From: Ignavibacteria bacterium
GTDB taxonomy: Bacteria > Bacteroidota > Ignavibacteria > Tepidaquicellales > OLB5
NCBI GenBank assembly: GCA_017303675.1
Contig: JAFLBX010000001.1
Span: forward strand, 755,970-819,969
Direction: 5' to 3'
DNA length: 64,000 bases
Part shown: in pieces, positions 16,227 through 18,348 of the stretch
Layout: every line of letters begins with the position of its first letter
How positions within the stretch are numbered: position 1 is the stretch's first letter
Made by a program: the position numbers and the translations under genes
Notes under the pieces: generated by a model
Database searches by the model: none
What the model saw: only the letters and a program-made list of their open reading frames with translations
What the model was told of the DNA's origin: nothing

Positions 16227-16284
16227 TGTAGCGGGCAGGCTTGCCTGCCCCTGAAAAGGCGTCGGGCAAGCCGCGACGCCTACG
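16227..16284. repeat. REP element (TGTAG...CTAC), copy 1
   Basis: It starts TGTAG and ends CTACG. It holds a first palindrome GGGCAGGC/GCCTGCCC and a second hairpin GGCGTCG/CGACGCC (16258-16280). A 71-bp relative lies at 17364-17434, and the second hairpin recurs in the RAYT gene at 17761-17786. Such bipartite palindromes are typical substrates of REP-associated tyrosine transposases. Confidence 0.85.
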
Positions 16285-16376: not shown

Positions 16377-17276
16377 ATGATAAAAAAAGTTTTACTTGGG
16401 ATATTTCTGCTTTTAATTGCGGCGGTGATATTCCTTTTTTATTTCGCCTGGCGCTCGCCAGCTTTTTACGAGGGCAGTATGGCATGTAAATTTGCCGCAC
16501 CGCCGATGAGCATGGCAGAGTATGACAGCGCTGCGCAGACACATCCCAGACCCTTTATTATAGATATTAACGCATCAAAGAAAGATCCGAAATGGGGTAA
16601 GGTATTGTTTTACGGGGCAACACATACCCGTGACCCTCAGGATCAGCAAATTGCGGATATTGAAAAACGCTGGGATAATTTTGATCCGAATGTTTGCCTG
16701 GTAGAAGGCAGGCTGGGATTTTTGGTTCCGGGCTTAATGGATCCCGTTAAGGAATACGGCGAAATGGGTTATGTTTATAAGCTCTCACGCCGTGACGGAG
16801 TTGAAGCCTTTACATGGGAGCAGCCCCTGGATAACGAAATTACAGCCGTACTGAAAAAATTCAAGCTCGAACAGGCTGCGGTGTTTTATATACTTCGTCC
16901 GTATTTCAGTAACCTGCGGTTTGGCAAGCCCGAAGATCCTGATGAGTATGTTAAGGGGTTTATTGAAAAGCGTACTCAGCATCCGGCACTGCAGAATACA
17001 ATAAAGAGCGTTGCCGATATTGATGCAATCTGGAACAGGGAATTCCGCGGAAACGATAAGAATGGTAAGCCAATTAAAGATTGGCGTGAAACTTCAGATG
17101 AATACGGCCTGCCGTTATGGCTGGGTGATATTTCCGCCGAAAGTAATTATGTACGCAATGAATACCTGGCATGTTTAATTGTAACACTGGTTAAACAGGG
17201 TAAACGCGTTTTTGTTATAGGAGGTTCAAGCCACCCGGTATGCATTGAAAGGACGCTGAATTCAGAATTAAGGTAA
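16377..17276 (+). CDS. membrane-anchored TraB/ChaN-like fold protein
   Basis: A 299-residue protein with one N-terminal membrane helix (VLLGIFLLLIAAVIFLFYFA) and the rest presumably outside the cytoplasm. GATHTRDPQDQQ, then CLVEGR, and at the C-terminus VFVIGGSSHP, follow the pattern of the TraB/GumN/ChaN/erythromycin-esterase superfamily (paired His/Glu motifs at both ends of the domain). Members may be metal- or heme-binding or hydrolytic; no substrate can be named here. The gene lies between two copies of the same REP element. Confidence 0.55.
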   Translation: MIKKVLLGIFLLLIAAVIFLFYFAWRSPAFYEGSMACKFAAPPMSMAEYDSAAQTHPRPFIIDINASKKDPKWGKVLFYGATHTRDPQDQQIADIEKRWDNFDPNVCLVEGRLGFLVPGLMDPVKEYGEMGYVYKLSRRDGVEAFTWEQPLDNEITAVLKKFKLEQAAVFYILRPYFSNLRFGKPEDPDEYVKGFIEKRTQHPALQNTIKSVADIDAIWNREFRGNDKNGKPIKDWRETSDEYGLPLWLGDISAESNYVRNEYLACLIVTLVKQGKRVFVIGGSSHPVCIERTLNSELR

Positions 17277-17363
17277 ATTATATAAAATATAAGAGTCAAC
17301 TGTAGCGAGAGGTTCCAATTTAGTAAACAAAGCCATTTCGCCTGCCGGGAATGTTAATTTTTT

Positions 17364-17434
17364 TGTAGCGGGCGCGGCTTGCCCGCCCGTAAATGGTAAC
17401 AAACAAAGGCGTCAGGCAAGCCGTGACGCCTACA
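17364..17434. repeat. REP element (TGTAG...CTACA), copy 2, upstream of the RAYT gene
   Basis: TGTAG at 17364 and CTACA at 17434 are terminal inverted bases. GCGGGC/GCCCGC (17368-17386) forms the first hairpin; GGCGTCA/TGACGCC (17408-17430) the second. A half copy (GGCTTGCCCGCCCG, about 17463-17476) follows just before the transposase gene. Confidence 0.88.
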
Positions 17435-17496
17435 GGATAAAGATCATGTTTTTGCAAGGGGGGTGGCTTGCCCGCCCGCAAATTATTTAATTACAT

Positions 17497-18063
17497 ATGC
17501 CATTTAAAAAATACAAATCGTTAAGGTTAAAAGATTACGATTACACTTTGCCCGGAGCATATTTCATAACAATATGTGTAAAGGATAGAAAATGTTTATT
17601 CGGCAATGTTTCAGGCGGAGTAATGATTTTGAATGCAGTCGGCAAAATTGTTCAAAATGAGATGATAAATATTGCAACACACTATCAGAATATAGAAGTT
17701 GGTGAGAATATTGTAATGCCGAATCATGTGCATATGGTTGTTTATATATATGAATTAACGGGCGTCAGGCAAGTCGTGACGCCTACAAAACGCATACGGC
17801 TTCAGGATGTAGTTGGTTCGTATAAATCAGGCGCATCCCGGGAAATCAGAAAAATCAAAGGATGTGAGAACTTCAGATGGCAGCGGTACTATCATGATCA
17901 CAGAATTAGAAACGATAAAGCGCTTGTGAATATTTCACAATATATCAGGCTGAACCCTGTAAACTGGGCAGAAGACATTGAAAACGAATTATACGTTATG
18001 GGTATTACTCAAAAAGAAAGAACAGATAAGGCAAAAAAATTTTATAAAAATTTAACAAAATAA
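17497..18063 (+). CDS. REP-associated tyrosine transposase (RAYT, Y1 family)
   Basis: A 188-residue single-domain Y1 transposase. GAYFITICVKDRKCLF (about 20-35) is the conserved N-terminal strand. NHVHMVV (76-82) carries the HUH metal-binding pair (His77, His79). WQRYYHDHRIRN precedes Tyr149 in SQYIRLNP, the candidate nucleophile. Proteins of this family act on bipartite palindromic REP DNA, and such DNA lies immediately upstream. All catalytic residues appear intact. Codons 89-97 (GVRQVVTPT), in the variable loop after the HUH motif, are a copy of the REP half-element itself. It is domesticated or mobile; activity cannot be judged from sequence. Confidence 0.93.
   Translation: MPFKKYKSLRLKDYDYTLPGAYFITICVKDRKCLFGNVSGGVMILNAVGKIVQNEMINIATHYQNIEVGENIVMPNHVHMVVYIYELTGVRQVVTPTKRIRLQDVVGSYKSGASREIRKIKGCENFRWQRYYHDHRIRNDKALVNISQYIRLNPVNWAEDIENELYVMGITQKERTDKAKKFYKNLTK
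17761..17787. repeat. REP hairpin copy inside the RAYT coding sequence
   Basis: 26 bases (17761-17786) match 17408-17433 at 25 positions, and the match extends one base further (CTACA). The stem GGCGTCA/TGACGCC is perfect. It is read in frame as GVRQVVTPT. Confidence 0.9.
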
Positions 18064-18066
18064 AAT

Positions 18067-18348
18067 ATGTTTACAGTATCCACACCGCATTTTTTGGTTA
18101 ACGTTGTTACCAAACCCGAAGTCGCAGATCACCTGATACCGAATATTAAGAAATTTGATATTGTTTATTATGTCAGGGAAGATCTGAAAGGCTCAAGGCC
18201 GGCAGACCCGGAAGAAAAAGATATAACAAAAGTTCAGATGCTTTGCCGAAGAGGAATATTAAGCGAAGTAATGAGCTATGTTAAGGAATATTACATAAAG
18301 GGCTACGGCGCTGTGTGTTATTACGAAGAGGTTAATGTGCCGATGTAG
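18067..18348 (+). CDS. small protein of unknown function downstream of the RAYT gene
   Basis: A 93-residue protein beginning three bases after the transposase stop, probably on the same transcript. It is well-behaved in composition (mixed alpha/beta, YYVREDLKG, EVMSYVKEYYIKGYG) and lacks a signal peptide. No family is recognised, so its reality rests on reading-frame length, ATG start and tight spacing. Confidence 0.5.
   Translation: MFTVSTPHFLVNVVTKPEVADHLIPNIKKFDIVYYVREDLKGSRPADPEEKDITKVQMLCRRGILSEVMSYVKEYYIKGYGAVCYYEEVNVPM

Follow-up and report, generated by a model that had tools for sequence, protein, structure and literature searches.

A REP palindrome within the coding sequence of a RAYT transposase gene of the Ignavibacteria

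Background

A cognate REP locked in the coding sequence of the transposase would be a simple physical answer to the problem of how RAYTs and REPs remain matched to each other. A locus in an Ignavibacteria genome raises the question of whether such an arrangement exists there and, if so, how it came about and why it persists. The initial annotation of the window, the whole analysed stretch of 64,000 nucleotides, had proposed that a RAYT gene carries a copy of the local REP in its own reading frame and that the copy may have been selected as a linker. Here the internal REP is compared with the REPs beside the gene, with syntenic orthologues in the genus and with relatives from the same class and from other phyla. 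The sequence comparisons suggest that the hairpin is inherited and kept and is no one-off accident.

The RAYT gene and its protein

The gene contains the motifs NHVH (residues 76-79), WQ (128-129) and YIRLNP (149-154), and the tyrosine Y149 is invariant in an alignment of 33 sequences. The Pfam profile Y1_Tnp matches barely above its cut-off (23.8 bits against 23), and the NCBIfam profile REP_Tyr_transpos (NF047646) gives 59.2 bits (E 4e-16), which is below the curated cut-off of 80 bits. The other two RAYT genes of the genome, at loci L002 and L003, are likewise under the NF047646 cut-off. In terms of sequence similarity, such a score lowers the formal equivalog call and leaves the homology untouched. 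A profile built from 33 relatives matches 4ER8, the structure of Escherichia coli TnpA_REP, at 1e-7. For the AlphaFold2 model of the protein (mean pLDDT 85.8) the best fold match is again this structure, a complex of TnpA_REP with a REP hairpin (E 5e-6), followed by IS200/IS605 transposases. A phmmer match to the ribosomal protein Rps12e was backed by neither the fold nor the profile search and was rejected as spurious.

In the model the loop of residues 85-101 connects the HUH strand, residues 77-84, to the helix that follows, residues 102-117. Its length and sequence vary among relatives, and it is flanked by two conserved core halves. Residues 92-96 have a pLDDT below 50, and the residues coded by the REP are, according to the model, a disordered loop. 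In relation to the two closest orthologues the core has a dN of 0.15-0.17 and a dS of 1.2-1.6; across the comparisons made, dN is 0.10-0.28 and dS 0.85-2.6, with a dN/dS of about 0.1-0.15. These ratios indicate that the core is under purifying selection, so that the enzyme appears functional despite the internal insertion.

The internal REP and the REPs beside the gene

The internal REP GGCGTCAGGCAAGTCGTGACGCCTAC occupies codons 89-97, shortly C-terminal of NHVH, and the upstream REP to which it is nearly identical is GGCGTCAGGCAAGCCGTGACGCCTAC (Table 1). The initial annotation had placed the matching half-element about 350 bases upstream with 25 of 26 bases in common, which was confirmed with a distance of 353 between the starts, and its in-frame reading GVRQVVTPT, in the loop that follows the HUH motif, was found to be correct for the open reading frame 17497-18063. 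The sense strand carries CTAC, and the GTAG tag is therefore antisense. With up to three mismatches the 26-mer has three matches in the window (16258, 17408 and 17761) and none in 100 dinucleotide shuffles. The REP core, with up to two mismatches, has exactly three copies in the complete 3.65-Mb genome, all of them at the RAYT locus within 1.6 kb. The identity of the gene as a RAYT and the internal element as a copy of the local REP, as first suggested, are borne out.

Table 1. Features of the RAYT locus in the window.
Feature	Position	Strand	Description
Second REP doublet, past the next upstream gene	16228..16283	.	Inverted pair: type A at 16228-16251, type B at 16258-16283
Upstream neighbour gene	16377..17276	+	299 aa; no NCBIfam match; synteny marker
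Upstream REP doublet (REPIN-like)	17365..17433	.	Repeats in direct and inverted orientation; folding z -3.3
Type-A REP GTAGCGGGCGCGGCTTGCCCGCCCG	17365-17389		Part of the upstream doublet; opposed by inverted type B 17408-17433
Degenerate type-A REP	17460..17479	+	Foot GCAA replacing GTAG; repeat 78% to 17350-17394
RAYT (TnpA_REP-like HUH/Y1 transposase) gene	17497..18063	+	Intact; 188 aa
Internal REP, type B, lone	17761..17787 (REP proper 17761-17786)	- (GTAG tag antisense)	25/26 to 17408-17433; hairpin z -3.8
Downstream neighbour gene	18067..18348	+	93 aa; synteny marker

Folded alone, the internal REP gives -8.8 kcal/mol, and none of 200 shuffles was as good. The REP form at this locus is GTAG-GGCGTCA plus a mini-stem and a bulge. 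The stem had been described as intact, which holds for the outer stem GGCGTCA/TGACGCC of 7 bp and not for the inner GGC-AA-GCC mini-stem; the sole mismatch of the internal REP (C to T) lies there, and the mini-stem is broken on the GTAG strand. The element had also been described as 27 bases that preserve the frame. The frame is kept, but the net inserted length is unreadable from orthologues with 39-nt units and no empty-site allele. Such an allele (the same gene without the REP, at high core identity), sought in order to fix the boundaries of the insertion, was not found among the closest pairs of RAYT genes, which differ by palindrome replacement or by tandem change.

The REPs of the locus are of two types, A (GTAGCGGGC...) and B (GGCGTC...CTAC, on the opposite strand GTAGGCGTC...), which face each other as inverted doublets similar to BIMEs and REPINs. 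An inverted doublet lies upstream of the gene, and no REP was found directly downstream of it. Close type-A matches in the genome are few: one is at the RAYT gene, and the other contig has two weaker matches, as counted with a pattern too strict to catch the copy at 16228. The sister genome G036 has the REP of the second doublet at the same place (34-nt exact match).

Orthologues in the genus

The RAYT gene is syntenic in six genomes of the genus. The upstream neighbour adjoins it in G036 and G217 (85-86% identical) and the downstream neighbour in all five sister genomes (70-91% identical). The latter gene has no convincing family match.

The variant with T, GGCGTCAGGCAAGTCGTGACGCC, was found among 13 genomes of the genus only inside the RAYT genes of the window genome and G036. 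It is present in one of the G036 copies, in an exact run of 29 nt that is the longest within the gene, at a core dS of 1.2. A comparable exact run (33 nt) is shared with G036 in the downstream neighbour, and the run of 29 nt alone is therefore unremarkable. From these comparisons, the private variant is the stronger argument for vertical inheritance.

The internal and upstream REPs of G217 are identical in 23 of 23 positions, and both have the paired stem change GGCGGCA/TGCCGCC in relation to the window. To judge from this case, the internal copy in syntenic orthologues follows the local REP family. There are three tandem internal copies with a 39-nt period in G036 and two in G103, with one degraded copy in each.

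The loop can lengthen by whole palindrome units, as seen in in-frame tandem REP arrays at L007 of G036 (1765-1880, 39-nt period), L109 (389-700, repeated VGVQNIEPNKNI units) and L096 (1806-2100).

Survey of relatives

A survey of other RAYT genes for REPs in the same loop had been proposed in the initial annotation, and such REPs proved to be frequent. A hairpin with a GTAG/CTAC tag was found in the loop of 63 of 94 intact relatives of the same class and 55 of 73 intact relatives across many phyla; these fractions are biased frequencies, the relatives being phylogenetically clustered and retrieved by similarity to REP-bearing genes. The second set was drawn from named genomes of Ignavibacteria, Chloroflexi, Cyanobacteria, Nitrospirota, Cloacimonadota, Spirochaetota, Planctomycetota, Patescibacteria and others, and open frames were defined mechanically. 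Equal lengths upstream of HUH in the same genes contained no tagged hairpin in either set, and codon-shuffled loops gave an expectation of 0.75 (94 relatives) and 0.7 (73 relatives). The controls (other gene parts, swapped flanks and codon shuffles) are unaffected by the sampling bias. The loops without a recognisable hairpin amount to 25-33%, and the REP is therefore not essential.

The loops also match the flanks of their own genes, much more often than control segments do. A score of at least 16 was obtained for 26/94 relatives in the class set, compared with 1/94 for core controls and 1.8% with swapped flanks. The corresponding figures in the cross-phylum set are 32/73, 2/73 and 1.4%.

Double-foot REP forms are present in the loops of many relatives. 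In G261 and G061 the internal element has exactly the sequence of the dispersed REP that dominates the genome; the exact-foot copies total 21 and 28, respectively. Several of the dispersed copies in G061 are also situated in long open frames, and in-frame insertion of REPs is therefore not restricted to RAYT genes. The sole exact double-foot REP found in each of the genomes G027, G223, G227 and G349 is inside a RAYT gene, a result limited to exact matches, since diverged copies would escape the search. No imperfect copy was found beside the RAYT genes of G227 and G349.

Palindrome and peptide

A set of 66 unique elements of 28 or 29 nt was selected by the feet alone. At the inner stem positions each of the four base pairs occurs, and yet positions 8-11 pair in 91%, compared with 34% (sd 3%) when the 3' halves are re-dealt. 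Only five similar elements were found elsewhere in the same reading frames in 78 kb. The GTRG tag is in codon phase 0 in 49 elements, in phase 1 in 17 and never in phase 2, where TAG is a stop in frame. The peptides of the loop (VGARHASPLQ, CRDVACNVST, RGGSRTAPT and GVRQVVTPT) are unrelated across relatives. Homologous loops hold REPs in two frames or sequence other than REPs, and shorter or longer loops without a REP are common. In the aligned loops there was no homologue that encodes the same residues with unrelated codons and has no REP nearby. Judged by pairing and frame usage, it is the palindrome in the DNA that is conserved and not the peptide it encodes, which leaves selection for one specific linker peptide unsupported.

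Origin and maintenance of the internal REP

The evidence obtained here characterizes the internal REP, at the level of sequence, as a DNA element that recurs in relatives, is cognate to the REPs beside the gene and is inherited. Probably, a cognate REP came to lie in a loop that tolerates insertions, was then inherited and has been kept palindromic by homogenisation or by selection at the DNA level. Cleavage at CT and recognition of GTAG are known from other TnpA_REPs. A REP from beside the gene would have been inserted via single-strand transfer catalysed by the RAYT itself, and insertions that kept the frame would have survived because the loop is permissive. Repeated rounds of conversion or re-insertion may afterwards have kept the internal copy palindromic and in agreement with its cognate REPs. 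Alternatively, or in addition, there may have been DNA-level selection for a site that the enzyme can bind. As a result, the gene would take its own recognition site along wherever it moves. In our judgement, permissive insertion accounts for the entry of the REP, and conversion, DNA-level selection or both account for the upkeep of the palindrome.

Other explanations start from the codons, the peptide or the transcript. That a run of codons resembles a REP by coincidence, with no REP ever inserted, is refuted by the lack of matches in shuffled sequence and by the recurrence in relatives, 63 observed against 0.75 expected, and its probability is negligible. Selection at the protein level, with the encoded residues serving as a useful linker, would agree with the preserved frame and with the place of the loop between two conserved core halves. 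The residues are however wholly different between relatives and between frames, many loops are shorter or longer and have no REP, some of them holding other sequence, and the region is modelled as disordered. The linker that was initially suggested is thus very improbable. The hairpin could instead act in the mRNA or as an operator, leading to autoregulation of the transposase. It folds well, it is within the transcript, and covariation in the stem is equally expected of an RNA hairpin. Many elements have nevertheless retained their GTAG/CTAC tags, which matter in DNA recognition by TnpA_REP and for which we know of no RNA role, and a function of this kind seems unlikely.

A purely passive process, where REPs hop locally into a tolerant loop, those in frame survive and each internal REP is recent and without function, has a probability that falls only a little short of even. 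It is in accordance with the use of both open frames and never of the third frame, in which elements starting with GTAG have a stop, with the unrelated peptides, with the decayed and tandem copies in G036 and G103, and with the G061 REPs in other long frames. Against it is the private variant common to two syntenic orthologues; at a core dS of 1.2, not every internal copy can therefore be recent. Another objection comes from the four genomes in which the search for the exact double-foot REP gave no match outside a RAYT. There is no near copy beside the gene in G227 and G349 and therefore no resident REP population resupplying the loop there, and passive supply from such a population is hard to invoke in those genomes. 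It is also conceivable, if rather doubtful, that selection at the DNA level maintains the internal REP as a cis-element built into the gene. The stem would then co-evolve with the REP family of the enzyme at the expense of the peptide, enzyme and substrate would be transmitted together, and the copy could seed or regulate the genomic REPs. The internal palindrome can be broken by synonymous or conservative codons with the flanking REPs untouched, which makes a direct test possible.

Relation to described systems

The TnpA_REP subclass 2.4 is reportedly the same as RAYT group 4 of Bertels et al. In Quentin et al. (2018, PMC6006769), in-frame REPs between HUH and Tyr are given as a unique feature of subclass 2.4, which has many members in Bacteroidetes, in Cyanobacteria and in scattered phyla. 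A REP in its own transposase is an already described kind, and the gene in the window belongs there. The gene agrees with the published description in being an HUH/Y1 enzyme with NHVH for NH[IFV]H and W128-Q129 for WQ, in having a REP in frame in the coding stretch from HUH to Tyr, and in the GTAG tag of this REP, which falls under the canonical definition (long or double-foot, GC-rich foot, GT[AG]G tag). It differs from the consensus YIxNNP, having YIRLNP (YIRLNP, YISMNP, YIKLNP and YIRINP in the orthologues). The REP is single-tagged with a bulged inner mini-stem and no double foot, and the genome has only three type-B copies. The gene is accordingly assigned to the type of subclass 2.4 (RAYT group 4) by motifs and features and not by the published profiles, with one published motif deviating. 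Covariation in the internal palindrome, frame usage and the tracking of flanking REPs between orthologues are not reported in the passages of PMC6006769 examined, and a partial literature search found nothing further on an internal REP. An internal REP also explains why this branch of the family appears hypervariable between the two catalytic motifs, as most of the variable stretch consists of DNA palindromes that are translated.

The TnpA_REP of E. coli (4ER8) and the REPtron are similar in fold, HUH/Y1 chemistry and a GTAG-tagged hairpin as substrate, but the REPs of E. coli are outside the transposase gene. In-frame REPs in other genes were described by Di Nocera et al. (2013, PMC3733652). 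The intragenic GTAG/CGTC REPs and the Rickettsia palindromic elements are likewise short palindromes in a coding frame that are tolerated by the protein. Their host genes are unrelated, whereas the host gene in the window encodes the very enzyme presumed to mobilise the repeat.

Other RAYT genes

All three RAYT genes examined in the window genome have a different internal REP. The one at L003 (G000:C1:1059393-1062662) contains, between HUH and Tyr, an in-frame inverted REP doublet of 48 nt, REPIN-like, GTAGGTCGAATCG...TTTCGGGCTAC, and a near-identical copy of the doublet follows right after the stop codon of the gene (doublets at 1551-1599 and 1849-1897). At L002 (G000:C2:1020578-1024063) the RAYT open reading frame 1474-2004 has the internal hairpin GAGACGCCCCAGCGGGGCGTCTCTAC, with a match of score 25 in its own flanks. 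In G299 three RAYT genes are arranged head-to-tail (L287, L286) and a fourth is found elsewhere. The three exact double-foot REP copies of that genome are all within RAYT matches, one of them in an intact RAYT gene recognised by the ORF scan.
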